Below are positions 9,001-64,000 of a stretch of DNA of 64,000 nt, in pieces; positions within the stretch are counted from its first letter, which is position 1, and each line of letters opens with the position of its first letter. Source of the stretch: Kaistia sp. 32K (lineage in GTDB: Bacteria > Pseudomonadota > Alphaproteobacteria > Rhizobiales > Kaistiaceae); the NCBI RefSeq assembly GCF_016629525.1, contig NZ_AP024269.1:3224001-3288000 (forward strand), written 5' to 3'. Under the pieces are notes generated by a model. The model searched no databases, had not been told where the DNA came from, and saw nothing but the letters and a program-made list of their open reading frames with translations. The position numbers and the translations under genes are program-made.

Positions 9001-9188
9001 GATAAAAACTCCCTGAGTGCCTGCCCTTGTCAGCGCGGGAATGCCGCCATCGCCCTCCGATACAGGGTGGGACGATGGCGGCTTCGCTTGGACAGGCAGG
9101 TCCTGTTTCTGTAGGAAAGCTGGCATGGACGGCCGCCGCGGTCCATATTTGTTCTCATGTCCCGTTCTTCGAATCGACCGCCCCGCAG

Positions 9189-11540: not shown

Positions 11541-11684
11541 CCCGGCTAGAGCCGCATCAGTCCCTCTCAGGCCCGCGCGGCGGGACGGAGGTTGGATGTC
11601 GGCTTTCGGCCCATAAGCAATTTCCCAATCGGCTCCGAGGCGGGGTATGAAAACACCTTCCGCCGCCAGACAAGGTTCGCCAGC

Positions 11685-12551
11685 TTGACCCTCATCGCCT
11701 CCCTCAACCTTGCCAAGGAATCCGACGCCACCCGCCTCATCGAGGCGATCGGTGAGGATGAAGCGCTTGGCTTTCCCTCCGCTGCGACGACGGAGCAGGA
11801 TGACCAGAGCTGGACCGTCGACGTCTATTTCGAGGAGCAGCCCGACGAGGCGGCGCTCGCCCGCGTGCTCGCCGAGGTACTCGGCGCCGATGCCGGCCAA
11901 TTTGTCGTCGCGCCCCTCCCGGACGAGGACTGGGTCGCGAAGTCGCTGGAGGGCCTGAAGCCGGTCCGCGCCGGGCGCTTCCTCGTGCATGGCAGCCACG
12001 ACCGCGACAAGATCCAGCCGGGCGATATCGCCATCGAGATCGAGGCCGGCGAGGCGTTCGGCACCGGCCATCACGGCACGACGGCGGGCTGCCTGGAAGA
12101 GATCGACCGGCTCGGCAAGCTCCACGACTACAAGAGCATCCTCGACCTCGGCACCGGTACGGGCGTGCTCGCCATCGCCATCGCCAAGGCCTGGCAGAAG
12201 CCGGTGCTCGCCACCGACATCGATCCGATCGCCACCCGCGTCACGGCCGAGAACGCGGCGCTGAACGGCGTCTCGGAGCTGATCGAAGCGGCGACGGCGG
12301 AAGGCTTCGGCAATCCCGTCCTCGCCGACCGCGCGCCGTATGACCTGATCGTCGCCAACATCCTGGCCGGCCCGCTGATCGCGCTCGCGCCCGATGTCGC
12401 GGCCCATCTGGCGCCGAAGGGCACGGTCGTCCTCTCCGGCCTGCTCACCGCCCAAGGGCCGGCCGTCACCGCCGCCTACGAGGCCGAGGGCCTCAAGCTG
12501 ACGCGGACCGGCGAACAGGAAGGCTGGCTGACCCTCACGCTGGAGCGGTAG
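11685..12551 (+). CDS. prmA: Ribosomal protein L11 methyltransferase
   Basis: SAM-dependent trimethylation of ribosomal protein L11. The SAM-binding motif is LDLGTGTGVLAIA, followed by DIDPIATRVTAENA and the catalytic/acceptor loop IVANILAGPL. The region before it, EAGEAFGTGHHGTT, is diagnostic of PrmA. No ATG exists in frame near the start. The TTG at 11685 (TLIASLNLAKES) gives 289 residues, a normal length, with a purine-rich AAGG eight bases upstream; a TTG at 11592 with GGAGG almost touching it is a weaker alternative. Confidence 0.9.
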   Translation: MTLIASLNLAKESDATRLIEAIGEDEALGFPSAATTEQDDQSWTVDVYFEEQPDEAALARVLAEVLGADAGQFVVAPLPDEDWVAKSLEGLKPVRAGRFLVHGSHDRDKIQPGDIAIEIEAGEAFGTGHHGTTAGCLEEIDRLGKLHDYKSILDLGTGTGVLAIAIAKAWQKPVLATDIDPIATRVTAENAALNGVSELIEAATAEGFGNPVLADRAPYDLIVANILAGPLIALAPDVAAHLAPKGTVVLSGLLTAQGPAVTAAYEAEGLKLTRTGEQEGWLTLTLER

Positions 12552-12588
12552 GGGGAACTGCGTCGCGCGCGCAGCCAATCTCGACCAT

Positions 12589-12725
12589 CATCCTGAGGTG
12601 CCCGGCAAAGCCGGGCCTCGAAGGAGGGTCCAGGAAACGCCCGGGACCTCCGGACTTCGTCTGCAAACTGGAGTGCCCGCTGGATCCTCCTTCGAGGCTT
12701 CGCTCGCGCGAAGCACCTCAGGATG
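12589..12725. repeat. Inverted pair of palindromic intergenic repeats (type A)
   Basis: Copy 1 runs from CATCCTGAGGTG at 12589 to CTCGAAGGAGGG ending at 12628; copy 2, from CCTCC at 12686 to CACCTCAGGATG ending at 12725, is its reverse complement apart from the hairpin loops. Each copy contains its own inner hairpin (CCCGGC/GCCGGG in copy 1, GCTTCGC/GCGAAGC in copy 2). The arrangement is a BIME-like pair of REP units. Confidence 0.7.
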
Positions 12726-12752
12726 TTGGCGGAGCAGGCTGACCCAGCCAAA

Positions 12753-12790
12753 TGGATCCCGGATCTCCGCTTCGCTGCGTCCGGGATGAC
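12753..12790. repeat. Palindromic intergenic repeat (type B, single copy)
   Basis: TGGATCCCGG at 12753-12762 pairs with CCGGGATGAC-type sequence at 12781-12790. The same two ends bound each arm of the 32-bp inverted repeat at 48344-48454, so this is a dispersed REP-like family with at least three units in the window. Confidence 0.65.
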
Positions 12791-12840
12791 GACGGAACTG
12801 TGTCGTCGCGGCTCAAGCGGCTATCGCCCCCGAAGCAGCC

Positions 12841-12963
12841 CCTCACCCAACCCTCTCCCGCGAGCGGGAGAGGGCCTAGGCCGGCACCCTCATGATCCGC
12901 GAGCGCGACAACCGACGCAGGCGATCCCCCTCGCCCGCTTGCGGGAGAGGGGCGGGGTGAGGG
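12841..12963. repeat. Inverted pair of palindromic intergenic repeats (type C)
   Basis: Copy 1 at 12841-12874 begins CCTCACCCAACCCTCTCCCG and contains the hairpin CTCTCCCGC-GAGCGGGAGAG. Copy 2 at 12928-12963 is the inverse, ending GGGGCGGGGTGAGGG. The pair lies directly between prmA and the convergent CoA-transferase gene. The rest of the 12552-12970 interval holds no recognisable gene. Confidence 0.65.
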
Positions 12964-49737: not shown

Positions 49738-50535
49738 TTAGCGGTTTACCCCTTCCGCAACGGCATTTTCGCCCTTGTCGGCGAGGGCCCGGCCCAGCCG
49801 ATGCAGGGTCGCGATCGTCGAGGAATCGGCGATTCCATCGACCCGCTCGGGGCGGAAATGACGCTGGAACGCGGTCACCACCTGCTCCGTCGCCAGATCG
49901 TAAACACCTGTGATCTGAATGGGATATCCGTAGAGCGCGAGCATGGCCTGCAGCGCCTCGATCGGCGCGCCGCTTTCACCCGCGCTAAAAAAACGACCGC
50001 CCCGAATCGGCTCCGGCTCGACGAAATGGCCTACCCCAGCGGCGGCAAGGCGCGACCAGGGAAACTTCTCGCCGGGGTCGCGTTTGCGGGCCGGCGCAAC
50101 GTCCGAGTGAGCAAGGATTCGTTCCGGACGAATGCCGTGACGAGCGCAAATGTCGCAGGCAAGCGCGATCACCGCTTCGATCTGAACGTCCGGAAAATCG
50201 GGATAGCCATGGTCGTGGCCCAGATTGGCGATCTCGATTCCGATCGATCGGGAGTTGATATCGTCCTTGCCGTGCCACGAAGAGACGCCGGCATGCCACG
50301 CCCGATCCGCCTCGGCGACGAGCTGGGTGATCGTCCCGTCCTCGGCCACGACATAGTGGCAGGAGACCTGCGAGGCCGGGTCGCAGAGCAGGTCGATCGC
50401 CGCCTCGGCGGTCTTCATGTCGGTATAGTGCAGGATGAGGATATCCACCGGCGCGCCGTCCGCGCGGGGACCGAAATTCGGCGAGGGCCGCCAGGCCACA
50501 TTGGGCAGAGCCGCGTCAGGCAATCGTTTCTCCAT
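49738..50535 (-). CDS. N-acetylmuramoyl-L-alanine amidase (AmpD/AmiD type) with peptidoglycan-binding domain
   Basis: Amidase_2 zinc amidase cutting the MurNAc-L-Ala bond. Zinc His in ILHYTDM, then NSRSIGIEIAN, and ERILAHSDVAPARKRDPG containing the second His and the Lys/Asp region. A PG_binding_1 domain follows at about residues 185-250 (EALQAMLALYGYPIQITGVYD). No signal peptide is visible, suggesting cytoplasmic recycling of anhydro-muropeptides. A hairpin (around 49714-49738) lies at its stop. 265 residues. Confidence 0.88.
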   Translation of the reverse strand: MEKRLPDAALPNVAWRPSPNFGPRADGAPVDILILHYTDMKTAEAAIDLLCDPASQVSCHYVVAEDGTITQLVAEADRAWHAGVSSWHGKDDINSRSIGIEIANLGHDHGYPDFPDVQIEAVIALACDICARHGIRPERILAHSDVAPARKRDPGEKFPWSRLAAAGVGHFVEPEPIRGGRFFSAGESGAPIEALQAMLALYGYPIQITGVYDLATEQVVTAFQRHFRPERVDGIADSSTIATLHRLGRALADKGENAVAEGVNR

Positions 50536-50576
50536 GATCGGAAAGCCCGCGTCGCGCGGCCCTACCCCATTCTATC

Positions 50577-51293
50577 TCAGGCAAACGCCCGCTCGCGGCG
50601 GATGCGGTCATAGGCGCCGTTCAGCGCCGCGAGCTTGGCGGTGGCGATGGCAAGGAACTCCGCCGGCACGCCGCGCGCGATCAGCCGGTCGGGATGCGTC
50701 TCCGCGACGATCCGCCGGTAATGCCGCTTGACGTCGTCGTTCGAGGCGCCGCGATCGATGCCGAGGATGAGATAGGGATCGCCCTCCTCCGGCACGACAT
50801 GGCGGCTGCTGATGCGGGCGAAGGCCGCCTCGGGGATGCCGAAGATCGACGCCACGCTGTCGAGGAAGGCCATCTCGTCCTGATGCACCATGCCGTCGGC
50901 CTTGGCGATGTGGAACAGGCCGTCGATGATGTCCTCGAACACCGGCGAGCCGGGATCGAACAGGCTGGCGAGTTTTCGCGCATAGGCGTCGAAGCCGGCG
51001 ACGTCCTGCTTGGCGAGGTTGAACAGCCGCGCCACGTTCTGGCGCTCGTTCGGCGGAATCTCGAAGAGTTCCTCGAACGCCGCCACCTCGCGAGGCGTCA
51101 CGACGCCGTCGGCCTTCGCCATTTTCGCCGAGAGGGCGATCATCGAGACGGAGAAAGCCACCTGCCGCCGGTTCTCGGGCGTGCCGAGCAAAGCCGTGCG
51201 CACAGCTTCAATGAGACCGTCCAGCGCCTGACCGATGGTGCAGGTGCAGGGCAGTTGCCGGATGAAATCGCCGAGTCGTTGCCAGATTGTCAT
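50577..51293 (-). CDS. TerB/J-domain co-chaperone (DjlA-like)
   Basis: 238-residue protein with an N-terminal TerB-like helical domain (ALSAKMAKADGVVTPREV, HIAKADGMVHQDEMAFLD) and a C-terminal J domain (YLILGIDRGASNDDVKRHYR then HPD in AETHPDRL), the DnaK-stimulating tripeptide. Unlike E. coli DjlA it lacks a clear N-terminal membrane helix. It lies 41 bases before the amidase in the same direction, so the two are probably one operon. Confidence 0.88.
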   Translation of the reverse strand: MTIWQRLGDFIRQLPCTCTIGQALDGLIEAVRTALLGTPENRRQVAFSVSMIALSAKMAKADGVVTPREVAAFEELFEIPPNERQNVARLFNLAKQDVAGFDAYARKLASLFDPGSPVFEDIIDGLFHIAKADGMVHQDEMAFLDSVASIFGIPEAAFARISSRHVVPEEGDPYLILGIDRGASNDDVKRHYRRIVAETHPDRLIARGVPAEFLAIATAKLAALNGAYDRIRRERAFA

Positions 51294-51400
51294 CGACAGA
51301 GAATAGGCGAGCCGGCCGTTCGAGGCGAGAGTCCAGGGTGTCGCGCTGGCATGCGTCTAGCGAATGGCTTGCCCTCCGCCGAAGCGACCGCGAAAGCGCC

Positions 51401-54079
51401 CTACTCGATTTCCAGCAGGCTGACCTTGCGCGCGACGGAGACGGCGAGGCTGCGGCGGCCGACGCCGAGCTTGGCATAGAGGTTCTTCAGGTGGAACTTG
51501 ACCGTCGCCTCGGTCAGGCCGAGATCGCGGGCGATTTCCTTGTTTGTCGCATCGCGCGCCAGAAATTCCAGCACCTCCGCCTCGCGCACGCTGAGAAGCT
51601 CCGTGCCGAGGCGCGGCTGCGCCGCCTTGACCTGGTGGAAGGCGCCGGCGATGCGGCTGACGAACTCGGCCGTCTTCGGGCTGAAGGTGGAGAGGCCGAA
51701 GCGGCGGACGATGCCGCGCACCGCCTGCGACAGCGGCCTTCCCTCGTCCAGGAAGATCTGCAGGCAGTCCTGCGGCCGCGCCAGCGCGATCGAGCGCTGC
51801 AGCGCCGCCAGCGCATCCTCCATCCGCCCCGCCGCCCAATAGGCCTCGATCGCGACGACCGTGCCGGCGAGCAGGTGCCAGCCATGCTCCGCCTCCGTCG
51901 CGTCGGCGATCAGGTGCTCCGTCCGGCGCACGGCGGCGTCCGCCGCGCCGGTGCGGGCGAGCAGCCGCGCCGAGACGACGGCCGCGTCGCTCCATTCGCG
52001 CCAGGTCGGCCACGCGGCCGCGTCTTCGAGATCCGGCATGGCGGCGATGAGCTGGCCGGCGGATTCCACCAGCCCTGCCCGCGTCAGGAGCTCGGCCCGC
52101 AGGATGGCGACGGCGAGGCGGAGGCGCTGCAGGTCGCGCTCGATCGCCACTTCCTCGGCGCGGTCCAGCACGCCCTGCGCCGCCTCGATGCCGACGAGCC
52201 CCATCTGCGCCCGCGCCTGCGTGCCGAAGCCGCGCACGAACAGGTCCACCCAGCCCTCGCCACGCGCGAGATAGGGCAGATCCTCGGTCATCATCTTCGC
52301 CGCGGCGGCGACCTCGGATTGCTGGTAGAGCGCCTCGGCCAGCGGCAGGTGGACGATGGCCAGCAGGCGGCGGTCGCTCCATTGCGTGCGCTGGGTCAGT
52401 TCCTCCGCCTCGCGCGCCAGGAGCAGCGCCGCCGACGGCCGCCCCATCAGCATCGTCACCAGCGCCAGGTGGATGATCATGAAGATCTGCGCATAGGCCG
52501 CCCGCTCCTCGCGGTAGCAGGCGAGCGAGCGCAGCGCATTGGTGCGCGCCTTGTCGAGATCGCCGCGCCTTGTGTGCACGATGCAGAGATGGTTGTAGAC
52601 CCAGCCGCGCTCCCACGTGTCCTTGGGCCCGAAGCGGCCGAGCAGCCGGTCGAGCTCCTTCAGCTGCGCATCGTCGAGGCCGCAATCCTCGTAGATGTCG
52701 ATCATGCCCTCGATGTGCTCGTAGTCGAGCTCGGATTGCGGCCCGCTGTCGTCGAGGGCTTCGATCTCGCCGGATTCGCGCAGATCATCGATGATCTCGC
52801 GCGCCGAGCGGATGCGGCCGCGCTTCGCCAGCACCAGCGCGTAGATCAGCTTCAGGCTCGGCGAGCGGTAGATGTCGGCGGCGGGGATGTTCTCGATCAG
52901 CCGCTCCAGCACCGTGTGGCCGGCGCGCAGGAAGATGTTGACGCCGCCGGCCTGGCGGATCGTCTCGGCGGCGAGCGCGAAATCACCGGCGAGCGAGGCG
53001 TGGGTTACCGCCTTTTCGAGATGGTCGCGCGCCGCGAACCAGGTCGCGGCGCGGGAATGCAGGCCGAGGACGCGCTCGGAAGGGTGCAATTGCAGCTGCG
53101 AGGCGAAGGTGGCGCGCAGCACCGGATGCAGCCGGAACCAGCCCGGCCGCTGGTCGACGGGCACGATGATCGGCGCGAAATCCTCGAGATCGCGCACCGA
53201 GCGCTGCTCCACCGCGACGCCGGCGAGATGCGAGGCGAGATCGAGCGGGAAATCGGCGAGGATGGAGCAGACCGTCAGCGCCTCGCGCATGTCAGGCGGG
53301 ATGCGCGGCACGATCTCCTCCAGCACGAAATCGCGCAGGATCCGGTGCGTGCCGGCGACGATCTCGGCCCGCTCGCGCGGATCCTCCGTGCCGGAAAGCA
53401 GCGGCACGGCGAGCTGCACCAGCGCCGGCCAGCCGCCCGTCAGCTCCGCGAAGGCGTCGAACTCCGCCGCCGACAGCCGCTTGCCGACGAGCCGCCGCAT
53501 CTCGGTGCGGGTGAAGGCGAGCTCGCCCGAAAGCAGCTCCGTCAGGAAGCCGCGCAGGCGGAAGCGCGACAGCGGGATCTCCGGCCGGCTGCCGGAGGCG
53601 ATCACGACCCGCACATTGTCCGGCAGATGCCGGAAGAAGGCGGAGCAGCAGGCGAGGAACGCCTCGCCGCCGGCGGTCTGGAACTCGTCGAGGAAGAGAA
53701 CGACGCGCTCGCCGCATTCGGCGATCCGTTCGAGCAGGCGCTGCGTCTCGACCACCGGATCGTCGGCGCGGACCGCTGCCGGCCGCAGCGCAAACGCCGC
53801 GGCGACGCCATCGAGAAAGACGAAGGGGTCGGCGTCGGCCGCCGAGACGGAGAGCCAGCCGAAGCAGTCGCCGGGCTCCCGCACGCCCTCGAACGAGCTC
53901 GCCAGCAGCTCGGTCTTGCCGAAGCCCGGCGGCGCCTGCAGGACGACGATCTGGCCGGCGATGCCCTGCCGGATGCGGTCGGTGAGGAAGGGTCTCGGCA
54001 TGGCGTCGCCGAGACGTCGCGGCACATGGGTGCGCCGCCGCGCCTCGGCAGAGAGTTTGACGACAGTCAGTACCGTCAT
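51401..54079 (-). CDS. LuxR-family ATP-dependent transcriptional regulator, MalT-like
   Basis: 892-residue STAND-type activator. N-terminal P-loop VLQAPPGFGKTELL near residue 50 and a Walker B-like VVLFLDEFQTA; a long helical, TPR-like middle (residues about 400-800); and a C-terminal LuxR HTH (LSVREAEVLEFLARDATNKE, then TEATVKFHLKNLYAKLGV). Such proteins multimerise on a small inducer and activate catabolic genes. It is the last gene of the minus-strand run that carries the importer and hydantoin-type enzymes (126 bases after the second DUF917 gene), so it is the obvious candidate to sense that pathway's substrate. Confidence 0.9.
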   Translation of the reverse strand: MTVLTVVKLSAEARRRTHVPRRLGDAMPRPFLTDRIRQGIAGQIVVLQAPPGFGKTELLASSFEGVREPGDCFGWLSVSAADADPFVFLDGVAAAFALRPAAVRADDPVVETQRLLERIAECGERVVLFLDEFQTAGGEAFLACCSAFFRHLPDNVRVVIASGSRPEIPLSRFRLRGFLTELLSGELAFTRTEMRRLVGKRLSAAEFDAFAELTGGWPALVQLAVPLLSGTEDPRERAEIVAGTHRILRDFVLEEIVPRIPPDMREALTVCSILADFPLDLASHLAGVAVEQRSVRDLEDFAPIIVPVDQRPGWFRLHPVLRATFASQLQLHPSERVLGLHSRAATWFAARDHLEKAVTHASLAGDFALAAETIRQAGGVNIFLRAGHTVLERLIENIPAADIYRSPSLKLIYALVLAKRGRIRSAREIIDDLRESGEIEALDDSGPQSELDYEHIEGMIDIYEDCGLDDAQLKELDRLLGRFGPKDTWERGWVYNHLCIVHTRRGDLDKARTNALRSLACYREERAAYAQIFMIIHLALVTMLMGRPSAALLLAREAEELTQRTQWSDRRLLAIVHLPLAEALYQQSEVAAAAKMMTEDLPYLARGEGWVDLFVRGFGTQARAQMGLVGIEAAQGVLDRAEEVAIERDLQRLRLAVAILRAELLTRAGLVESAGQLIAAMPDLEDAAAWPTWREWSDAAVVSARLLARTGAADAAVRRTEHLIADATEAEHGWHLLAGTVVAIEAYWAAGRMEDALAALQRSIALARPQDCLQIFLDEGRPLSQAVRGIVRRFGLSTFSPKTAEFVSRIAGAFHQVKAAQPRLGTELLSVREAEVLEFLARDATNKEIARDLGLTEATVKFHLKNLYAKLGVGRRSLAVSVARKVSLLEIE

Positions 54080-54205
54080 GGGATTCGCAACAGGGTGCTT
54101 TCCATCTCGAAGACAGAGCCTCGCCCCAACTGGAATCCGAATATAGCGGCGCTTTTGCGATGCACTAGGGCCGATGCACTGGGACCGATGTGCTAGGACC
54201 CGGCG

Positions 54206-55291
54206 TCAGAGACCGAGCCCGACATAGTCGTGCTTGAGCCCAAAGGCGCGCGGGCCGAACACCTCGAGCGCCTCCGGCGTGCGCATGATCGGCGGCACGC
54301 GCACGGCCAGGACGTTGACCCGCTGGCCGTAGCGCAGCCGCTCCGTCAGGATCGGCTCCGCCGTGTCGACGTCGAGCAGGCAGATCAGGTCCGGCACGAT
54401 CGCCAGCACGTCGCTGCCCTGCTCCACCACCAGGTTCTCGTTCTGGATGCGGATCCGCATCGGCTCGCCGCCACCGAACGGCTCGATCGTGGCGATGCCG
54501 ACCGACCAGCCATTCTCCATCCGCCGCGCCACGTCCGTCACCTTGCCGGAGCCGACGATCCGCGCCTCCTCATAGTGGGTGGTGGCGAAGAAATCGATCA
54601 GCGCCTTCATCCCGTCGTGATGGTTCTCGCGCGCCTCGCGCAGCGTGCGGCCGATGCCGATCGCCAGCGACACGGTGCCCGGCACCGAAACGCGGCGCGC
54701 CGTCTCGCCGTTCATGCCGTAATTGGCGATATAGGCCTGTCCGCCCATGCGGATGGTGAGGCCGCGCGCGACCCATTCGGCCTTGGCGGCCGAATTCGTG
54801 CTGATGATGCCGCAATTGCCCTGCTCGTCGGCGATCGCCACCGGCGCCGCCGGCACGCCATAGACGTTGAAGGTCTCCATCTCGAGCTGCGGAAAGGCGC
54901 GGCCCATGCCGTCGCCATCGACCAGCGGCAGGCCCCGCTTCGCGGCGATCATCACCGGCGTGGTCGAGTTCACCCCGCCCGCCTCGAACGGCATGACGGC
55001 CTCGATCTTGTAGCCGACATGCGCCTCGTAGGTGTCGAAGGCGAGGCCGAGCTCCTCGCCGGAAGGGATCTTCTCGATCAGGATGGTCGGTGCGCCCATC
55101 GCGCCACAGGTCAGGACCCGGAGGTCGTCCGGCAGGTCCTCGAGCTGGAGCAGCGGCACCGGGCCGTGCTCCTCGATGGCGTTGCGCGCCAGCAGCTTGC
55201 CGATATAGGGATCGCCGCCGCCGCCGGTTCCCAGCACCGCCGCGCCGAGGGCGAGATCGTCGAGGTCGTCGAGCGTGATATGCGTGATCAT
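54206..55291 (-). CDS. DUF917 family protein (S-methyl-thiohydantoin desulfurase-like), copy 2
   Basis: 361 residues, full-length DUF917. Shared family blocks: AVLGTGGGGDPYIGKLL at the N-terminus, FEAGGVNSTTPVMIAAKRG, VDGDGMGRAFPQLEMETFNV, and the C-terminal PEALEVFGPRAFGLKH. Some members act on thiohydantoins; otherwise function is undefined, often beside hydantoinase/oxoprolinase genes as here. It begins one base after the end of the paralog at 55293-56381, so the pair is translationally linked and may form a heteromer. Substrate is unknown. Confidence 0.85.
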   Translation of the reverse strand: MITHITLDDLDDLALGAAVLGTGGGGDPYIGKLLARNAIEEHGPVPLLQLEDLPDDLRVLTCGAMGAPTILIEKIPSGEELGLAFDTYEAHVGYKIEAVMPFEAGGVNSTTPVMIAAKRGLPLVDGDGMGRAFPQLEMETFNVYGVPAAPVAIADEQGNCGIISTNSAAKAEWVARGLTIRMGGQAYIANYGMNGETARRVSVPGTVSLAIGIGRTLREARENHHDGMKALIDFFATTHYEEARIVGSGKVTDVARRMENGWSVGIATIEPFGGGEPMRIRIQNENLVVEQGSDVLAIVPDLICLLDVDTAEPILTERLRYGQRVNVLAVRVPPIMRTPEALEVFGPRAFGLKHDYVGLGL

Positions 55292-55292
55292 G

Positions 55293-56381
55293 TCAGGCCA
55301 TGGCCTCGATGGGGGTGAAGGGGTGGTCGAGGCCGAAGCAGCGCGGCCCGAACACGGCGAGCGCCTCGGGCGTGCGCATGATCTCCGGCACCGCGACGGC
55401 GACCACGGTGACGCGCTGGCCGTAGCGCAGCTCCTCGGTGGTGATCGGCTCGGCGCTCTCGCTGTCCATGATGCAGATGAGATCCGGCACGATCGCCTTG
55501 ACGACGCCGTCGACGGTGGCGATCAGGTTCTCGTTCTGGATCTCGATCCGCATCGAGCCGACCCAGGGCGCAAGCCCGTCGATGCGGCAGCGGCCGATCG
55601 AGAAGCCGTTGCGCGTCTCGCGCTGCACGTCGGCCAGCTTGCCGCTGAAGATGACGCGGGCGTGGTGGTAGAGCGTCTGCGGCATCAGCGCGAGCAGCGC
55701 GTCGAGCGGGTTCAGGTGGTTGGCCTTCGCCTCGCGCAGGCAGCGTCCGATGCGCATCGCGAGCGTCATGGTGTTGGGGACCGAGGTCCGCTTCACGTCG
55801 GCGCCGGACATGGAATATTCGGCGATATAGGCGCAGCCGCCCATGCGGATCGCCACCATGCGCGACAACCACTCCATCGACTTGTTGTCGGCGGCCATGA
55901 TCAGCGTCGAGTCGTTGTCCTCGTCGGTGACGTACATCGGGCTGCCCGACACGCCATAGACGCCGAACGTCTCCATCTGCAGTTCCGGGAAGGCCCGGCC
56001 CATGCCGTCGGCATCGACGATCGGGATGCCGAGCCGCGCGCCGACCACCAGCGGGATGGTCGAGTTGATGCCGCCGATCTCGATCGGCATCGTCGCGAAC
56101 GCCTTGCGGCCGAGATGCTTCTCCAGCGACTTGAAGGAGTGCAGCGCCTCCTCGCCGCTCGGCAGCTTCTCGATCAAAACCGTCGGCGCGCCCATCATCG
56201 CGGTCGGGATGACCAGCGCGTCGTCGGGCACGTCAGCGGGATCAATCAGGTCGATGGTCAGCCCCTCGTCGAGGCATTGCTGCGCCATCAGGCGGCCGAC
56301 ATAGGGGTTGCCGCCGCCGCCCGTTCCGAGGAAGGCGGCGCCGACGGCGAGGTCGCGGAGGTCTTCGGAGGTAAGCTTCAT
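55293..56381 (-). CDS. DUF917 family protein (S-methyl-thiohydantoin desulfurase-like), copy 1
   Basis: 362 residues, paralog of the following gene: AAFLGTGGGGNPYVGRLMAQ, IEIGGINSTIPLVVGARLG, VDADGMGRAFPELQMETF, PEALAVFGPRCFGLDHPF. It differs in a more Met-rich middle and retains every conserved glycine block. It lies four bases after the hydantoinase-A-like gene. The two copies are diverged enough that a simple recent duplication is unlikely; a two-subunit enzyme is plausible by inference. Confidence 0.85.
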   Translation of the reverse strand: MKLTSEDLRDLAVGAAFLGTGGGGNPYVGRLMAQQCLDEGLTIDLIDPADVPDDALVIPTAMMGAPTVLIEKLPSGEEALHSFKSLEKHLGRKAFATMPIEIGGINSTIPLVVGARLGIPIVDADGMGRAFPELQMETFGVYGVSGSPMYVTDEDNDSTLIMAADNKSMEWLSRMVAIRMGGCAYIAEYSMSGADVKRTSVPNTMTLAMRIGRCLREAKANHLNPLDALLALMPQTLYHHARVIFSGKLADVQRETRNGFSIGRCRIDGLAPWVGSMRIEIQNENLIATVDGVVKAIVPDLICIMDSESAEPITTEELRYGQRVTVVAVAVPEIMRTPEALAVFGPRCFGLDHPFTPIEAMA

Positions 56382-56385
56382 CGCT

Positions 56386-57927
56386 TCAGCCCATCACCAG
56401 GTCGCCGACCGCCTTGACGCGGATGCGCGTGGCGCTTCCGGGCAGGTAGGCGAGCGGGACCTCCTCGATGTCGACGATCTTGACGCTGGCCGGATCGGCG
56501 CCGGCATTGGTCGAGCGCTCGGTCGCCTCGGCCTTGGCGGAGGCGAGCACGATGTCGCGCGAGGTGCCTTCGAGCGAGAAGATGCGGTCGATCTCGCCGC
56601 CGACCTGGGCGATGGCCGCGCCGATGGCGTTGGCGACCGAGGCATTCTCCGGCCGGATCACCTTCGACGCCGACGGCAGGTCGCGCGAGACCAGGATGGA
56701 GCCGCCGCCGACCAGGATGACAGGCAGCGGATCGGCGCTCGTCTTCATGCGGTCGACCGCCTCGTCGACGATGCGGTGCATGGTGTCGAGCGCGTTGTTG
56801 ATCGTCTTGGCCGGGATATGGGCGACGCGCGAGCGGTCGCCGATGTCCTCGAGACCGGCCGCCACGACGATGTCGGTGGTGGTGAGCGTGTCGCCGCCAA
56901 AGACCAGCGCCTTCGAGATGATCTCGTAGCCGACCGAATCCGGGCCGATGCGCATACCCTCGTCGCGGACGATCGAGCCGCCGCCGAGGCCCACCGCGAG
57001 CACGTCCGGCATGCGGAAGTTCGTACGAACGCCGCCAATGTCGACGGCAACCGCCGATTCACGCGGGAAACCCTGCATCAGCATGCCGACGTCCGACGTC
57101 GTGCCGCCGATGTCGACGACCATCGCCTCGGTCTCGCCGGCAAGCAGCGCCGCGCCGCGCATCGAATTGGTCGGGCCGGAGGCGAAGGTCAGCACCGGGT
57201 AGCGCGCGACATAGTCCGGCGTCATCAGCGTGCCGTCGTTCTGGCTGATGAAGAACGGCGCCTCGATCGAGAGTTCCTTCAGCGCGTTGTGGAAGGAATT
57301 CACCACCTTCGTCGAGAGATCGGCGAGGCAGGCGTTCATGATCGTCGCGTTCTCGCGCTCCAGGAAGCCGACGCGGCCGATCTCGTGCGAGAGCGAGATG
57401 GAGAGATCCGGCACCTCGTTCAGGAGGATCTCGGCGGCGCGCTGCTCCATCACCGGCGTCACCGGCGAGAACACCGAGGTGATCGATGCGGTCTTCAGGC
57501 CCCGCGCGCGGATCTCGCCGGCGATCCGGAGAATCTCCTTCTCGTCGAGCGGCGAGATCTCGCGGCCGTCAAATTCGTGGCCGCCGCGCACCATGAAGAT
57601 GTGGCGGCCGAGCGTGGTGGCGAGGTCGTTGGGCCAATCCGTCATCGGCGGCAGGCCCTTGGTCGCCGGCAGGCCGAGGCGGATGGCGGCGACCTCGAGC
57701 AGGCGCTTGCGCTCGACCACGGCGTTGGTGAAGTGCGTGGTGCCGATCATCACCGCCTTGATCTCGGACACCGAGACGCCGGTCATGCTCAGCACGTTCT
57801 TGAGCACGGTGCTGATGCCCGAGCTCACATCCGACGTGGTCGGTGTCTTGCAGGCGCCCTTGACGGTCATGCCGTCCATGAGGGCGGCGTCCGTGTTGGT
57901 GCCGCCGACGTCAATGCCGATACGCAT
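56386..57927 (-). CDS. Hydantoinase/oxoprolinase family protein (HyuA N-terminal plus hydantoinase A domain)
   Basis: 513 residues, ASKHA-fold protein resembling the ATP-binding half of N-methylhydantoinase and 5-oxoprolinase. MRIGIDVGGTNTDAALMDG is the phosphate-1 loop, GTTHFTNAVVERKRLLEV follows, and MVVDIGGTTSDVGML is the second loop. No HyuB-type partner gene is present in the window, unlike classical HyuAB systems; the adjacent DUF917 pair may take that place (inference). Starts 39 bases after the ATPase gene ends. Confidence 0.88.
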   Translation of the reverse strand: MRIGIDVGGTNTDAALMDGMTVKGACKTPTTSDVSSGISTVLKNVLSMTGVSVSEIKAVMIGTTHFTNAVVERKRLLEVAAIRLGLPATKGLPPMTDWPNDLATTLGRHIFMVRGGHEFDGREISPLDEKEILRIAGEIRARGLKTASITSVFSPVTPVMEQRAAEILLNEVPDLSISLSHEIGRVGFLERENATIMNACLADLSTKVVNSFHNALKELSIEAPFFISQNDGTLMTPDYVARYPVLTFASGPTNSMRGAALLAGETEAMVVDIGGTTSDVGMLMQGFPRESAVAVDIGGVRTNFRMPDVLAVGLGGGSIVRDEGMRIGPDSVGYEIISKALVFGGDTLTTTDIVVAAGLEDIGDRSRVAHIPAKTINNALDTMHRIVDEAVDRMKTSADPLPVILVGGGSILVSRDLPSASKVIRPENASVANAIGAAIAQVGGEIDRIFSLEGTSRDIVLASAKAEATERSTNAGADPASVKIVDIEEVPLAYLPGSATRIRVKAVGDLVMG

Positions 57928-57966
57928 TATCGAACCTCGATCCTGGAATTGTTCGGTGCAGTCTTG

Positions 57967-59034
57967 TCAGGCGACCAGCGCCTCTGACCATTCGGGGTCC
58001 CAGCCGATCGTCACGACCGTGCCGGGGGCGAAGCGCTCGACATGCGCCTGGTTCTGGCGTTCGGCGATGATCTGCTGCTCGCCGACCTGGAGGCGGTAGC
58101 GCACGATGGCGCCCTGGTAGGTTTCGCTGAGCACGGTGGCGTCGAGGCGGATGTCACGCTCGCCGACGGCGCCGCCGATCAGCACGTTTTCCGGCCGCAC
58201 CACCAGCTTGGCGGCGGAGCCCGGCGCGACGCCGTTCGCGGCGCGGGCGAAGAGCGGACGTCCCGCGAGGACGACGGTGACGCCGTCGCCGTTGCGGTCG
58301 CTGACTGTCACGTCGAGCATGTTGGAATGGCCGATGAAGCTGGTGACGAACAAAGTCTTCGGCCGCTCGTAGATCTCCTGCGGCGTGCCGATCTGGACGA
58401 TGCGCGACTTCGACATCACGCCGATCCGGTCGGACATGGTCAGCGCCTCGTCCTGGTCGTGCGTGACATAGACGGTGGTGATGCCGAGCTTCTTCTGGAG
58501 ATCCTTGATCCAGAACTTCATTTCCTCGCGCAGGCCCTTGTCGAGCGCCGAAAGCGGCTCGTCGAGCAGCAGGATGCGCGGCTCGGTGACCAGCACGCGG
58601 GCGAGCGCCACGCGCTGCTGCTCGCCGCCCGAAAGCTGGCGCTGGTAGCGCTCGCCATAGCCGGCGAGGCCCACCTGCTTCAGCGCTTCGGTGACGCGCC
58701 AGGCGATCTCGTTCTTCGCGCGCTTGCGGAGCTTCAGGCCGAAGGCGATGTTCTCCGCCACGTTCATGTGCGGAAAGATCGCGTAGTTCTGGAAGACGAT
58801 GCCGATGTCGCGCTTCTCCGGCGGCAGCGCGGTGACGTCATCCGATCCGATCAGGATCTTGCCGGAAGTCGGCTTGATGAAGCCGGCGATCATGCGCAGC
58901 GTCGTCGACTTGCCGCAGCCGGAGGGGCCGAGGAGGGAGAAGAACTCCCCCTCCCCGATATGCAGGTCTATCTCGGAGACGGCGTTCCCCTCGCCATAGG
59001 TCTTGGTGAGGCTTTGGAGACGGATGTCAGACAT
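57967..59034 (-). CDS. ABC transporter ATP-binding protein (PotA/spermidine-type)
   Basis: 355 residues. Walker A LLGPSGCGKSTTLRMIAGF, Q-loop FQNYAIFPHM, signature LSGGEQQRVALARVL, Walker B ILLLDEPLSALDKGL, H-loop YVTHDQDEAL, and a C-terminal TOBE domain (VVRPENVLIGGAVGERDI). It energises the adjacent permeases. Last transporter gene before the catabolic genes. Confidence 0.92.
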   Translation of the reverse strand: MSDIRLQSLTKTYGEGNAVSEIDLHIGEGEFFSLLGPSGCGKSTTLRMIAGFIKPTSGKILIGSDDVTALPPEKRDIGIVFQNYAIFPHMNVAENIAFGLKLRKRAKNEIAWRVTEALKQVGLAGYGERYQRQLSGGEQQRVALARVLVTEPRILLLDEPLSALDKGLREEMKFWIKDLQKKLGITTVYVTHDQDEALTMSDRIGVMSKSRIVQIGTPQEIYERPKTLFVTSFIGHSNMLDVTVSDRNGDGVTVVLAGRPLFARAANGVAPGSAAKLVVRPENVLIGGAVGERDIRLDATVLSETYQGAIVRYRLQVGEQQIIAERQNQAHVERFAPGTVVTIGWDPEWSEALVA

Positions 59035-59082
59035 GGTGATGAGGTTCCGTTGCCGGGATCGATCGGGGCGGAGCGGTTCGCG

Positions 59083-60204
59083 TCAGCCGGCGAAGATGCC
59101 GTTCACGGTCTCGACGATGTCCTCTTCGTGCTCGTTGTAGCTCTTCCAGTCCGGCGTCCAGTAACCGGCGATCGCATCGGCCGTGTTGGTCACGCCCTTG
59201 GAGGCGAGGTTCGGGGTGATCACGACGTCCTTGTTGACCGGGCGCTGGTAGAAGGTGCTGCCCATGACCGACTGCAGCTTGGTGTCGAGCGTGCGGTTCA
59301 GAAGCGCGTAGGCGAGCTTCTTTTCGACCGGCTCGGCATAGCGGCTGACCGTCTTGGTCTGGGTCAGGATCGGCTTGATCTCGTCCCAGAGCATCGGCGC
59401 GACCTTCACGCCCTTGTCCATCTGCTGATAGACCTCGGCGTCGTGCTGGACGGCGATCTCGACCTCGCCGCGCTCCAGCAGCGTCTGCATGTTGCCGGTG
59501 AAGTCGGAGATCTTCATCGGCATGGCCTTGCGCATGGCCTCATAGCCGGCGTCGAGGTCGTACTGGTCCTTGCCGAACAGCTTGCAGGCGGCGATGAAGA
59601 AGTCCATCTGCAGACCGTTCGAGGTGACGTAGGTGCCGCGCTTGCCGGCGAACTTCTCTTCCCAGAAGTCCTTGAAGCTGGCCGGCTTCGGATCGACCAG
59701 GTCGGAGCGGTAGGCGTAGCAGTAACGCGTGTAGCTCCACGTCACGCCGACGCCGTTCTCGGTCGCGAACGGCCAGATCGACTTGGCGTTCGGCAGATTG
59801 GCGACCAGTTCGTCGATCGGCACGAAGAAATCGCCGGCCGCCGCCGTCTTGAACATCTCGCCATAGTTCCAGTTCACCAGCGCGAAGGGCGGCTTCTGCG
59901 GCCCGCCGGCGACGAATTTCGGGAACCAGGGGAAGGAGCTCTCGTAGGCGATCTTGCAGTTGAAGTCCTTCTCGAACTGGTTGAGCAGTTCCTTGCGGAC
60001 GATCTCCTCCCAGAAGCCACCCCACTCCGCGATGCGGAGCGTGGCGCCGCCGGCGTCGAAGACGCTGCCGTCATAGGAGACGTCCTGCGAGAAGGCGTGG
60101 TTGATGTTGAACAGATTGACGCCGGAACCGAGCGCGAGCGCGCCGGCCGAACCCTTCAGAAAGCCGCGTCGCGTAGGGGCGGCACCCTTGATCCAATTCT
60201 TCAT
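59083..60204 (-). CDS. ABC transporter substrate-binding protein (PotD-like, Tat-exported)
   Basis: 373-residue periplasmic receptor of the spermidine/putrescine-type class. A Tat signal (TRRGFLKGSAGALALG, twin Arg at residues 12-13) with cleavage near HAFSQD directs folded export. TRRGFLKG is a good Tat consensus. ATG at 60204 fits; upstream frame is not similar to the family. The ligand is unknown but gene context suggests a hydantoin-like or cationic small molecule. Confidence 0.88.
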   Translation of the reverse strand: MKNWIKGAAPTRRGFLKGSAGALALGSGVNLFNINHAFSQDVSYDGSVFDAGGATLRIAEWGGFWEEIVRKELLNQFEKDFNCKIAYESSFPWFPKFVAGGPQKPPFALVNWNYGEMFKTAAAGDFFVPIDELVANLPNAKSIWPFATENGVGVTWSYTRYCYAYRSDLVDPKPASFKDFWEEKFAGKRGTYVTSNGLQMDFFIAACKLFGKDQYDLDAGYEAMRKAMPMKISDFTGNMQTLLERGEVEIAVQHDAEVYQQMDKGVKVAPMLWDEIKPILTQTKTVSRYAEPVEKKLAYALLNRTLDTKLQSVMGSTFYQRPVNKDVVITPNLASKGVTNTADAIAGYWTPDWKSYNEHEEDIVETVNGIFAG

Positions 60205-60289
60205 TGTAGTTCCCCATTGTTGTTCTGGAACACCCCGGTCCTCTTGATGGGTGGGGTGAAGACATCGGCCTTTGAGCACGCGCACGGCC

Positions 60290-61093
60290 TCAGGCCCGGA
60301 AGACCCTCCGCAGGCTGACAAGTCGGGACGAAATGACGGTGGATAGGACGACGAGGGCGATGGCAAAGATGCCGGCGGCCGCCGCGGTGGGCTCGAATTT
60401 GTAGCGAAGCGAAATGTACATCGCCATCGGCAGCGGCTCGTGGTTCGGGACCGACAGGAACAGCGTGGTCTCGAACTGGCCGAAGGAGACGATGAAGGCG
60501 AAGATGCAGCCGGCGGAGATGCCCGGCGCGATGATCCGGAGCGTCACCTTGCGGAACGCCGTCCAGGGCGAGGCGCCGAGGCTGCGGGCCGCCTCCTCCA
60601 GCGACACGTCGAAGCCGACCAGCGAGGCGGTGACGGTGGCGATGACGAACGGGCTCGTCACCAGCACGTGGCAGATCAGCAGCCCGGTGAAGGTGCGGGC
60701 GAGGCCGATGTCGGTCGTCGTGAAGAAGACGTAGAGCGACAGGCCGAGCACGACCCCGGGCAGCACGATCGGCAGCATGAAATAGCCGCGCAGGAACGAG
60801 GCCGCCCGGCTGCCGGAGCGCGCCAGGTAGAGCGCGGCGAGCGTGCCGATCACGGTCGAGATCGCGGTGGCGGCCAGCGCCAGCAGGAAGGAATAGAGAT
60901 AGGCCGAGAGGAAGATCGGCGAGCTCAGGAAGGCCTTCACCCAGCGCAGCGACAGGCCCTGCGGCGGAAAGGTCAGGTAGTCGCCGGCATTGAGACCTGC
61001 GAGCACGACGATGGCGAGCGGCAGCAAGAGCACCAGCAGCGCGAAGCCGGCGATGAGCTTGAAGACGAGCGGGATCGCGGATTCGTCACGCAT
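60290..61093 (-). CDS. ABC transporter permease (PotC-like)
   Basis: 267 residues with about six membrane helices. The permease motif LEEAARSLGASPWTAFRKVTL contains the EAA loop that docks on the ATPase. The ATG at 61093 shares a base with the previous permease stop; longer upstream reading in this frame is an artefact. Confidence 0.9.
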   Translation of the reverse strand: MRDESAIPLVFKLIAGFALLVLLLPLAIVVLAGLNAGDYLTFPPQGLSLRWVKAFLSSPIFLSAYLYSFLLALAATAISTVIGTLAALYLARSGSRAASFLRGYFMLPIVLPGVVLGLSLYVFFTTTDIGLARTFTGLLICHVLVTSPFVIATVTASLVGFDVSLEEAARSLGASPWTAFRKVTLRIIAPGISAGCIFAFIVSFGQFETTLFLSVPNHEPLPMAMYISLRYKFEPTAAAAGIFAIALVVLSTVISSRLVSLRRVFRA

Positions 61094-62010
61094 CACGTCC
61101 GTCCTCCCGCCGTGCGCACGGCAGCCTTGTGGTAGATGAAAACCGCGAACAGGCTGGTCACGAAGAGCACGACCGCGACGGCGGCGCCGAACTGCCAGCG
61201 GCCGGTCTCGGCGATCTGCTGGTAGATGTGGATGGGCAGGACCATCACCTTCCAGCCGCCCATCAGCGCCGGCACGACATAGGACGAGATCGACAGCGCG
61301 AAGACGAGCAGCGATCCCGCCAGGATGCCCGGCATGGAGAGCGGCAGCACGACCCGCCAGAACGCCTGGGCGCGGGTAGCGCCAAGGCTGCGCGCCGCCT
61401 CCTCGAGCGAGGGGTGGATCGCCTTGATGATGCCGATCAGCGACAGCACCATGAAGGGCAGCGTCACCTGCACCAGCCCGACGACGACGCCGAAGGTGTT
61501 GTACATCAGGGGCAGCGGCTTCTCGATCAGGCCGATCGACATCAGCGCGCCGTTGATGAGCCCGTTGTCGCCCATCAGCACCATCAGCCCGTACATGCGG
61601 ATGACGGTGTCGAGCTGCATCGCCGACAGGACCAGGATCATCAGGAAGGTGTTGCGGCCGGGATGCTCGGTCTTGGCGATGACGAAGGCGAGCGGATAGC
61701 CGATCACCAGCGCGCAGGCCGCCACCACCGCCGCGATCCCGATCGAGCGCAGGATCGCCAGGTAATAAAGCGGCCGCGTGAAGATGCGGACGAAGTTGTC
61801 GAGGGTGAAATTGCCGGCGAAGGTGACGACGCCGGGCACCGACTTGTCGAAGGCGATGGCGAAGAGCGAGGCGGCCGGCGCCACGAAGAAGCAGAGGAAC
61901 AGGACGAAGGCGGGCACGACCAGCCACCACAGGCGGAAGCCGCCGAGCGCCTCGGTGATCGATCCGCGCGCGCGGATCCTTGGTACCGCCTGGGTCTCGG
62001 CTATCGCCAT
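61093..62010 (-). CDS. ABC transporter permease (PotB-like)
   Basis: 305 residues. Helices alternate from FRLWWLVVPAFVLFLCFFVAP onward and the EAA loop is LEEAARSLGATRAQAFWRVVL. ATG at 62010 (MAIAETQ) with AAGGAGG upstream decides the start against an in-frame ATG seven codons earlier. First of the four transporter genes; the racemase gene lies 38 bases before it. Confidence 0.9.
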   Translation of the reverse strand: MAIAETQAVPRIRARGSITEALGGFRLWWLVVPAFVLFLCFFVAPAASLFAIAFDKSVPGVVTFAGNFTLDNFVRIFTRPLYYLAILRSIGIAAVVAACALVIGYPLAFVIAKTEHPGRNTFLMILVLSAMQLDTVIRMYGLMVLMGDNGLINGALMSIGLIEKPLPLMYNTFGVVVGLVQVTLPFMVLSLIGIIKAIHPSLEEAARSLGATRAQAFWRVVLPLSMPGILAGSLLVFALSISSYVVPALMGGWKVMVLPIHIYQQIAETGRWQFGAAVAVVLFVTSLFAVFIYHKAAVRTAGGRT

Positions 62011-62048
62011 CGGGTTCGCCTCCTTCCGCATGCTGGTCCGGTCTGCGC

Positions 62049-62813
62049 CTATTCGGCCGCGATGGCGGAGGGCAGCGTGAAGCCGTAGCCGACCAGTTCC
62101 TTCTTGGGCGGCATCGGAAATGTGAGCTTGCTCTGGCTGAGGCCGACCCGCGCCAGCGCCGCCGCGATCGATACGGCGGTCGGGATCGGGTCGATCACCG
62201 GCACGTCGATACCCCTGGCCAGCAGCCCCTCGCGAACGGCGGCGGCGCAGCCCATCAGGCCGGTGCAGCCGAAGATGATCGCCTCGGCGCCGTCCTGCTC
62301 GACGGCGATGACCGCCTGCTCGACGAGCCGGGCGCGGGTGTTGACGAGATCGTCCTCGAGTTCCAGCACCGGGATGTTAACGTGGCGGACTGAGGCGAGC
62401 TTGGTGCTCAAGCCGTAGACGGCGGCCTCGTTCTCGAACTGGGCGCGCAGGCGGCGCAGCACGGTGATGACGCTGAAACGATGGCCGAGCATGGCGGCGA
62501 CGTGCATCGCCGTCTCGGCCGGGCCGAGGACCGGGATCGACACCACCTCGCGGGTGGCCCGCAGGCCGGGGTCGCCCATGCAGTCGATGACGATGGCGTC
62601 GGCGCCCTCGCGCTCCGCCTCGATCGCCTTCTCGACGGTACCGGGCACCGACATGGCGGTCTCGAATTCGCTTTCGATCGAGCCGGGTCCGGTTTCGATC
62701 TGGCTGTGGCTGACCGTCAGCCCTGCATAGTTGAGCGCGACGAGATCCGCCGGCTTGCGGAACCCTTTGGTGGTGATGGGGGACAAGACCCGCACATCGA
62801 TGAGATCGCTCAT
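62049..62813 (-). CDS. Aspartate/glutamate racemase family protein, hydantoin racemase-like
   Basis: 254 residues. Two catalytic-type cysteines are visible: Cys78 in IDCMGDPG and Cys183 in FGCTGLMGCA, the two-base mechanism of hydantoin and Asp/Glu racemases. The N-terminal VRVLSPITTKGF is typical of the hydantoin racemase branch. ATG at 62813 (MSDLIDV); the frame is open further upstream without similarity. First gene of the minus-strand cluster, so the promoter should lie in 62814-63098. Confidence 0.87.
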   Translation of the reverse strand: MSDLIDVRVLSPITTKGFRKPADLVALNYAGLTVSHSQIETGPGSIESEFETAMSVPGTVEKAIEAEREGADAIVIDCMGDPGLRATREVVSIPVLGPAETAMHVAAMLGHRFSVITVLRRLRAQFENEAAVYGLSTKLASVRHVNIPVLELEDDLVNTRARLVEQAVIAVEQDGAEAIIFGCTGLMGCAAAVREGLLARGIDVPVIDPIPTAVSIAAALARVGLSQSKLTFPMPPKKELVGYGFTLPSAIAAE

Positions 62814-63098
62814 GGCATTCCCTCGGCTCTGCTGCAGTGCCGAAAGGCTGGCACCGAAACGGCCGGGGGACCAAGGGTGAAGAAAGATAGGCGTCCAAGT
62901 GATTCGGAGGGTGGGTTTGCGCAACAAAACGCGCGCGACCTATCCGTTGGGATAGGAGCCGATGCCGCCCCGGCATTGATTTTCTTCTCTTTTCCGGCCG
63001 GATATGGTTGCACATTTTTCGGGCATGCCTGCAATGAGGGCACGAGTTGCTCCCGCCCGCGGTTTGACAGAAGCGGACGCGCTGGCGACCCTCGCCTC
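62814..63098. promoter_or_regulatory. Divergent intergenic region of the hydantoin-type cluster
   Basis: 285 bases between the racemase and the dipeptidase gene. No coding frame looks real; it must carry the promoters for both directions, but I could not find clear -35/-10 boxes or a palindromic operator by eye. Confidence 0.45.
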
Positions 63099-64000
63099 AT
63101 GACCCATGCACCGATCTCCGTCTTCGACGGTCACAATGACGTTTTGCTACGCCTCCACGACATGGGTGGCGGCGCCGCCGCGATCCGCTCCTTCCTGGAA
63201 GGCGGCGGCGGCGGCCATCTCGACCTGCCCCGCGCCCGCGCCGGCGGCCTTTCCGGCGGCCTGTTCGCCATCTTCCCGCCCTCGCCGTCGATGGACGGCT
63301 TCATGGAGCTGATGCTGGGCGAGAGCTACGACCTGCCGCTGCCCGAGCCGCTCGCGCTCTGCGACGGCCAGGCCTCGACGCTGGCCATGGCGGCGCTCCT
63401 CCTCCAGCTCGAGCGCCTCTCCGACGGCGCCGTCGCCGTCTGCCGGACGGTCGCCGAGATCCGCGCCGCCGAGGCGCGCGGCGCGCTCGCCGCCGTGCTG
63501 CATATCGAGGGCGCCGAGGCGATCGACGGCGATCTCGCCATGCTCGACGTGCTGCATGCCGCGGGCCTCCGCTCGATCGGCCCGGTCTGGAGCCGACCCA
63601 ACCGCTTCGGCCACGGCGTTCCCATGCGCTATCCGGGCTCGCCCGACACCGGCCCCGGCCTGACCGAGCGCGGCTTCGAGCTGGTGCGCGCCTGCAACCG
63701 CCTCGGCATCCTCGTCGACCTGTCGCATCTGAACGAGCGGGGCTTCTGGGACGTGGTCGAGGCGAGCGACGCGCCGCTCGTCGCGACCCACTCCAACGTC
63801 CACGCGCTGTCGCCGGTGGCGCGCAACCTGAACGACGCCCAGTTCGAGGCGATCCGCGCCAGCGAGGGCGTCGTCGGCTTGAACTACGCCACCGCCTTCC
63901 TGCGCGCCGACGGGCGCATGGACCCGAATACCGGCCTCGACATCCTGCTCCGCCATCTCGACGCCATGCTGGACCGTCTGGGGGAAGGCGGTGTCGCGCT
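63099..64000 (+). CDS. Peptidase M19 (membrane-type dipeptidase), 3' end outside window
   Basis: Reading frame open from ATG 63099 to the window end (300 residues plus a partial codon). Zinc-binding residues of the renal dipeptidase family are present: His12 and Asp14 in VFDGHNDVL, Glu137 in LHIEGAE, His210 in LVDLSH and His231 in VATHSN. It hydrolyses dipeptides and related amides. It is divergent from the racemase and may release an amino acid from a product of the importer-linked pathway (inference). About 50 to 100 residues are missing at the C-terminus. Confidence 0.88.
   Translation, partial: MTHAPISVFDGHNDVLLRLHDMGGGAAAIRSFLEGGGGGHLDLPRARAGGLSGGLFAIFPPSPSMDGFMELMLGESYDLPLPEPLALCDGQASTLAMAALLLQLERLSDGAVAVCRTVAEIRAAEARGALAAVLHIEGAEAIDGDLAMLDVLHAAGLRSIGPVWSRPNRFGHGVPMRYPGSPDTGPGLTERGFELVRACNRLGILVDLSHLNERGFWDVVEASDAPLVATHSNVHALSPVARNLNDAQFEAIRASEGVVGLNYATAFLRADGRMDPNTGLDILLRHLDAMLDRLGEGGVA

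Follow-up and report, generated by a model that had tools for sequence, protein, structure and literature searches.

The 64,000-bp window analysed here, positions 3224001-3288000 of the 5.35 Mb single contig NZ_AP024269.1 of Kaistia sp. 32K, carries at its right end a gene block in which a shortened HyuA-type ATPase, here termed HyuA-S, is encoded next to two proteins of the DUF917 family, D917a and D917b (S-Me-THD is the present-day Pfam name for DUF917). The initial annotation had described an uninterrupted minus-strand run of nine genes ending in an 892-residue regulator, with an M19 dipeptidase gene divergent at the other end; coordinates and Pfam matches confirmed the run, which extends from 62813 (racemase) to 51401 (regulator), as well as the plus-strand dipeptidase gene starting at 63099 (Table 1). 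Within the run, genes are separated by -1, 1, 4, 17, 39, 48 and 85 bp, and 126 bp lie ahead of the regulator gene. Taken with the comparisons below, this is a real, conserved and movable block around an enzyme pair that has no assigned reaction in the searched literature, and it is widespread rather than confined to the window.

Both DUF917 proteins match PF06032 and PF20906 above the Pfam cut-off, and of 43 conserved positions compared between them, 42 carry the same residue; they differ only at E133, which is replaced by Q. The Hydantoinase_A match of HyuA-S spans just 173 of the 291 profile positions. The racemase contains two cysteines, one in IDCMGD and one in FGCTGL, which we take to be catalytic. 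The solute-binding protein gave no Pfam match at E 0.001 and matched the NCBIfam PhnS/PotD profiles weakly (19-27 bits vs cut-offs of 310-582). A Walker A-like motif, APPGFGKT, is visible in the regulator sequence. This protein had been called MalT-like, which holds as a distant match of similar architecture (217 bits to NCBIfam MalT) but not at the equivalog cut-off of 537, so it is not MalT itself; it is the probable inducer-sensing activator of the operon. The M19 domain PF01244 is matched at 287.6 bits over positions 1-318 of 319, above cut-off. There is no tRNA gene in the window and no Rfam match in 50400-64000, and a scan for regulatory sites found no promoter-like site and seven terminator-like sites (4.7 expected).

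Table 1. Features of the gene block, in window coordinates.
Feature	Position	Strand	Family assignment	Proposed role
Left edge of block, just below regulator stop codon	51347..51400	.	four congeneric closed sites	
892-aa regulator, MalT-like repeat region and LuxR (GerE) DNA-binding domain	51401..54079	-	Pfam GerE, NCBIfam	
D917b, second DUF917/S-Me-THD-like protein, 361 aa	54206..55291	-	Pfam S-Me-THD_N/_C	
D917a, first DUF917/S-Me-THD-like protein, 362 aa	55293..56381	-	Pfam S-Me-THD_N/_C	proposed hydrolase partner of HyuA-S
HyuA-S, shortened HyuA-type ATPase, 513 aa	56386..57927	-	Pfam Hydant_A_N and Hydantoinase_A	proposed amide-activating (kinase) subunit
ATP-binding cassette (ABC) importer ATPase, PotA type	57967..59034	-	Pfam ABC_tran and TOBE_2, NCBIfam	
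Solute-binding protein, 373 aa, twin-arginine-like signal TRRGFLK read from sequence	59083..60204	-		
ABC permease, PotC type	60290..61093	-	Pfam BPD_transp_1, NCBIfam	
ABC permease, PotB type	61093..62031	-	Pfam BPD_transp_1, NCBIfam	
Asp/Glu/hydantoin racemase family protein, 254 aa	62049..62813	-	Pfam Asp_Glu_race	
Divergent intergenic region, racemase to M19	62814..63098	.		
M19 membrane-dipeptidase family protein, 355 aa	63099..64166 (stop 166 bp past the window end at 64000)	+	Pfam PF01244	

Of 385 genomes sampled from the class, 26 contain HyuA-S at E <= 1e-60, and at least 576 places encoding a relative came to light when species genomes were scanned. Gene neighbourhoods were compared at 123 loci selected for a HyuA-S similar to that of the window, in records of Proteobacteria, Firmicutes, Actinobacteria and Chloroflexota, namely 37 from genome searches, the best 80 of the at least 576 places, five of 121 plasmid records and the window. 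The sample includes seemingly identical contigs (L063/L101 and L070/L137) and near twins (L122/L124, L153/L155), and neighbours were sought by single-sequence queries and simple gene calling, so that absences are possibly overstated. Among these 123 loci, the set in which adjacency was checked, a DUF917 gene lies within about 2.6 kb of HyuA-S in 116, while HyuB lies within 10 kb in six. By these counts, the missing HyuB noted in the initial annotation is common to most HyuA-S loci and no special trait of this one. Within 4.2 kb, 57 loci have one DUF917 gene, 49 have two, 11 have three, one has four and five have none. At the two-DUF917 loci the nearest neighbour holds the same position for 44 of 49 tips; since first and second copies thus tend to keep their identity, the duplication seems to be old, with both copies passed on together. 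Long open reading frames (~700-1270 aa) that might have represented HyuA-S/DUF917 fusions were rejected, as no DUF917 was detected by Pfam in the six that were scanned; in L077, the extension of the long HyuA-S frame overlaps an opposite-strand gene.

The importer, racemase, HyuA-like protein, two DUF917 proteins and regulator had been proposed to form a catabolic unit, of which the grouping is upheld by conserved gene order and the thiohydantoin substrate is not (see below). The order racemase-permease-permease-binding protein-ATPase-HyuA-S-DUF917-DUF917-LuxR, all on one strand, recurs in relatives and on plasmids: it is present in ten of the 123 loci, comprising the window, six other genomes of the family, Chelativorans, a Rhizobium leguminosarum plasmid and an Aminobacter niigataensis plasmid, a count that includes L058, L093 and L173 with some genes split. 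Three additional loci show the full order minus a co-directional LuxR gene. In L173 (R. leguminosarum TpK plasmid pRL1, 5770-15700), the nitroreductase, permeases, binding protein and second DUF917 are in pieces, suggesting frameshifts or sequencing errors. HyuA-S has such a nitroreductase gene nearby in 13 of the 123 loci, divergent from the racemase in 11, and all five other congeneric copies examined (L056-L060) carry it between racemase and M19; it was not found in the window's genome by a search without positive control. Where divergent from the racemase (L056-L061, L093-L096, L173), the encoded protein has ~335 aa, including a ~150-aa N-terminal extension without Pfam match. Its assignment as a cyclodipeptide oxidase is unsupported, with 32 bits to albonoursin synthase vs up to 45 for other nitroreductases.

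Transporters vary among HyuA-S loci, being PotABC-like, Dpp/Opp-like or of the NCS1 type. Plasmids of Enterococcus, Parageobacillus and Lactiplantibacillus carry NCS1 permease-DUF917-HyuA-S, with PucR beside the unit in two of the three, and in a Clostridioides difficile expression table a permease, a DUF917 protein and a hydantoinase occupy consecutive locus tags and show concordant changes (PMC12915319). What stays constant is the enzyme pair of HyuA-S and DUF917, not the transporter type; its members are labelled "hydantoinase/oxoprolinase family" and "DUF917 domain-containing" protein in the records examined. Operon-member families (103 of 135 members) include scattered dehydrogenases, TonB receptors, M19 and others, and no single downstream pathway emerged among 25 of 114 families. 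Two further observations concern individual loci. At L091:7450-8478, and similarly in L082 and L090, a divergent regulator combines a racemase-like AroM domain with a LuxR DNA-binding domain in one fused protein, the racemase fold possibly serving as a ligand sensor. An almost identical gene string, including a molybdopterin large subunit and luciferase-like monooxygenases, is present at the HyuA-S loci L122, L124 and L141, whose records bear the titles Poseidoniales archaeon, Acidimicrobiales and Acidobacteria; recent transfer or a binning artefact may account for this.

Comparison with characterised amide-activating enzymes suggests a function for the pair. The ATPase subunit fold of CapA, from the caprolactamase CapAB of Pseudomonas jessenii (PDB 6yra), covers 499 of the 513 HyuA-S residues, and HyuA-S has both phosphate sites, P1 (DxGGTxTD) and P2 (DxGGT), as do CapAB and the 5-oxoprolinase/N-methylhydantoinase HyuAB, for which amide activation by phosphorylation has been proposed. 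D6 and D272 align with Asp11 and Asp295 of CapA, and the phosphate-site aspartates are invariant in 46 of 46 sequences. In contrast to the ~690-residue ATPase subunits of CapAB and HyuAB, whose partner is HyuB/CapB, HyuA-S has 513 residues and stands next to DUF917. CapB has an Asp-His-Asp-His metal site, whereas DUF917 shows no histidine in the invariant or nearly invariant columns of 37 sequences; a HyuB-like fold was not among the fold-search matches of DUF917, which excludes nothing. On balance, we favour the view that HyuA-S and DUF917 constitute a two-component, ATP-dependent cyclic-amide hydrolase, and whether the importer, this pair, racemase and M19 jointly serve the catabolism of a small cyclic amide, as a block that is both mobile and regulated, appears to us evenly poised.

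In the mechanism that we propose, the binding protein and ABC importer would bring in a cyclic amide, and HyuA-S would phosphorylate the amide oxygen with ATP, as is thought for CapA or 5-oxoprolinase subunit A. One or both DUF917 proteins, in HyuB's stead, would then hydrolyse the activated ring carbon, displacing phosphate or opening the ring. DUF917 desulfurases displace sulfur at a ring carbon, and for this reason an attack on the activated ring carbon would be in character for the family, albeit with a different residue set. The racemase would fix the stereocentre, the M19 dipeptidase would split the opened, dipeptide-like product, and the LuxR-type ATPase would switch the operon on. M19 enzymes can cleave L,D-dipeptides, which together with a racemase would fit substrates of mixed chirality.

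As to the substrate, we consider 2,5-diketopiperazines (cyclic dipeptides) the leading class, or a similar peptide-derived lactam, although the assignment to diketopiperazines is tentative. Cyclic dipeptides lead because a search of the genome for PF01244 found the M19 gene of the block and no other. This dipeptidase belongs to the unit and suggests that the product is peptide-like and not an N-carbamoyl amino acid; as the last step, it would suit a cyclic dipeptide more than a hydantoin. M19 lies within 9 kb of HyuA-S in 14 of the 123 loci, which come from several lineages; in Arthrobacter, Bacillus and an alphaproteobacterial metagenome-assembled genome it forms part of the gene string itself. 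The caprolactamase authors, in the available text, considered that many "5-oxoprolinase" genes may encode lactamases or cyclic dipeptide hydrolases (PMC6061476). Non-cyclodipeptide synthase (non-CDPS) clusters of cyclodipeptide oxidases reportedly show an enrichment of PF01177 racemase, DUF917, AroM and peptide importers, and many contain peptidases (PMC11055893); unlike these clusters, the block contains no identified cyclodipeptide oxidase, and the available text of that study does not name a HyuA-type partner. It is a bolder and rather doubtful extension that the pair represents an unrecognised hydrolase class, spread across phyla, which opens cyclic amides with ATP and has DUF917 where HyuB would stand. 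In this block the pair would then be a diketopiperazine hydrolase feeding M19, an enzyme of the kind that underlies the diketopiperazine cleavage observed with resting cells.

Several observations weigh against this interpretation. No activity or ligand datum was found for any member of the cassette, and 2o3i, the one fold that DUF917 matches strongly, has no listed function. HyuA-S lacks the CapA adenosine motif GxxPGP (the aligned stretch has no PGP) and ~80 C-terminal residues, for which reason its use of ATP is an inference. DUF917 is absent within 2.6 kb in seven of the 123 loci, two of the seven at a contig end, and within 4.2 kb in five. HyuB lies at most 0.2 kb directly upstream of HyuA-S in L118 and L156, where HyuA-S may pair with HyuB, which speaks against strict replacement. 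NCS1 "cytosine/allantoin" permeases (cluster 8) occur near HyuA-S in 25 and PucR regulators (cluster 19) in eight of the 123 loci, partners that favour hydantoin-, allantoin-, purine- or pyrimidine-like rings in other clades. As no M19 was found near HyuA-S in 109 of the 123 loci, the substrate may vary by clade. The stretches L118:1405-4675 and L156:1116-4352 also have DUF917 nearby and are possible intermediates between HyuAB and HyuA-S/DUF917.

Those NCS1 and PucR partners count in favour of a hydantoin/dihydropyrimidine pathway, in which an imported 5-substituted hydantoin would be handled by the hydantoin racemase and converted by HyuA-S/DUF917 to an N-carbamoyl amino acid, with the carbamoylase encoded elsewhere; we likewise regard this as a tentative possibility. 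The racemase of the block best matches solved hydantoin and allantoin racemases, a racemase lies within 9 kb of HyuA-S in 32 of the 123 loci, and hydantoinase activity has been suggested for DUF917, called uncharacterised in the available text of the study concerned (PMC11055893). Set against this, the M19 dipeptidase has no role in such a pathway, and a single-sequence search found an M20-like carbamoylase near only two and a dihydropyrimidinase-like gene near only three of the 123 loci. The queries were the M20 amidase and the amidohydrolase of this genome (E <= 1e-10), and with these nothing similar was detected at 45001-75999, in keeping with the initial claim that the locus lacks a hydantoinase and an N-carbamoylase. 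Hydantoin-utilization operons contain a racemase, a hydantoinase and a carbamoylase; the block shares with them the hydantoin/allantoin-type racemase and a transporter, but in place of hydantoinase and carbamoylase it has the dipeptidase.

The block adjoins a complete 1211-aa HyuA-HyuB fusion gene on the plus strand, the next gene 76 bp after the M19 stop codon, whose start lies 243 bp past the window edge. The statement that HyuB is missing is therefore correct for the block but not for the chromosome, and a HyuB and a hydantoinase just outside, which had been named as evidence against the original proposal, were half found, namely the fusion and no hydantoinase match. Block and fusion might belong to a single pathway in which the fusion would be the actual lactamase, leaving HyuA-S as a degenerate or regulatory copy. 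The position close behind M19 on the same strand, the recurrence of the fusion beside the block in G014 and an N-methylhydantoinase as its closest solved relative would suit this; we nevertheless deem it improbable. HyuA-S keeps both phosphate-site aspartates throughout, and every one of the 14 genomes searched in the genus has the fusion, six of them without block-type HyuA-S. Because it occurs in all 14 regardless of the block, the fusion is, judged by synteny, a host gene, and its inclusion in the block was rejected. The genome as a whole yielded five Hydantoinase_B and five Hydantoinase_A matches, HyuA-S counted in; further HyuA/HyuB loci lie at 687-692 kb, 881-885 kb and 2404-2407 kb.

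On the other side, the block is flanked by a TerB/DnaJ-domain gene that is likewise present in 14 of 14 genomes, and in four congeneric genomes (G017, G018, G020, G022) this gene and the fusion are adjacent without the block. BLAST placed the edges of these closed sites at 51346-51355 (left) and 64177-64243 (right) of the window, with 63 to 122 bp between, and their alignment shows conserved bases on either side of the junction. The other eight genomes that lack the block here have 0.25 to 1.8 kb between the points where similarity to the two flanks ends. HyuA-S with at least 58% identity occurs in eight of the 14 genomes, with fragments in G022 and a variant locus in G016; the block occupies the identical site in G014 and other chromosomal places in G021, G023, G025 and G026. 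The closed sites point to the stretch from the LuxR-type regulator through M19, ~12.8 kb, as one unit that appears to behave as a movable block, and its other sites and plasmid copies favour gain here rather than loss elsewhere. No recombinase gene is found among the ten genes of the block, and a search for a target-site duplication found no direct word of 7 to 20 bases common to 51294-51420 and 64141-64260. At 64154-64185, the 16-bp word CTGGAAAGATTGACGG occurs twice in tandem, across the M19 stop codon and the right-hand block edge, and this repeat may mark the junction. Third-position GC is 0.91-0.95 in the block vs 0.75-0.90 in four neighbouring genes; as neither GC nor third-position GC breaks sharply, the block does not qualify as a compositional island.

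Catabolism of a thiohydantoin or S-methyl-thiohydantoin, with both DUF917 proteins as desulfurases of ergothioneine breakdown, had been among the original suggestions and is strongly disfavoured. The window proteins do belong to the same superfamily (PF06032/PF20906) as the thiohydantoin and S-methyl thiohydantoin desulfurases (NF058529, NF058532), with which they share both Pfam domains, and with the genome's own desulfurase they share a glycine-rich N-terminal motif, R129, R174, N283-E284 and P299-D300. However, D917a is only 25% identical to that enzyme, four conserved residues (E71, E101, N106 and D125) differ, and the NCBIfam desulfurase scores, 74.5/104.3 bits for D917a and 89.8/95.8 for D917b, are far below the cut-offs of 440/450; the genome's other DUF917 protein reaches 586.6 bits against the thiohydantoin desulfurase cut-off of 440. 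E170 was not used as a difference, as the desulfurase residue is Glu in one alignment and Ser in another. Desulfurases are coupled to a urocanase-like gene, which is not among the block genes, whereas the window DUF917 genes are coupled to an ATPase-type gene. Moreover, a complete-looking ergothioneine/thiohydantoin breakdown cluster already exists at 5.16 Mb (L005, G000:C1:5155000-5174999, 7432-12890, minus strand), with thiourocanate hydratase (1037.6 bits, cut-off 930), thiohydantoin desulfurase, an M20-family amidase and an amidohydrolase-family enzyme. Uptake of polyamines or 2-aminoethylphosphonate with unrelated cargo genes is just as improbable: the ABC genes do resemble PotABC/PhnS-type systems, but the binding protein scores far below the PhnS/PotD cut-offs and the same HyuA-S/DUF917 core occurs elsewhere with Dpp-type or NCS1 transporters.

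The proposed cyclic-amide hydrolase pair can thus be distinguished from both HyuAB and the thiohydantoin desulfurases, and a concrete mechanism in two steps is suggested for it. We found no reaction assigned to DUF917 and no gene assigned to cyclic dipeptide hydrolysis in the available open-access literature, which leaves most subscription papers and all preprints outside, and a later report is possible. According to the accessible text of a 2013 report, the enzymes of diketopiperazine cleavage were unclear, cleavage was seen in strains that degrade hydantoins and dihydropyrimidines, and two recombinant hydantoinases were inactive on nine tested compounds (PMC3852281). The closed chromosomal site offers a natural with/without comparison among related species. 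If the cyclic-dipeptide reading is true, the block and its relatives would provide genes for the degradation that the same text describes in Rhizobium, Bacillus, Leifsonia, Paenibacillus and Microbacterium cells (PMC3852281).

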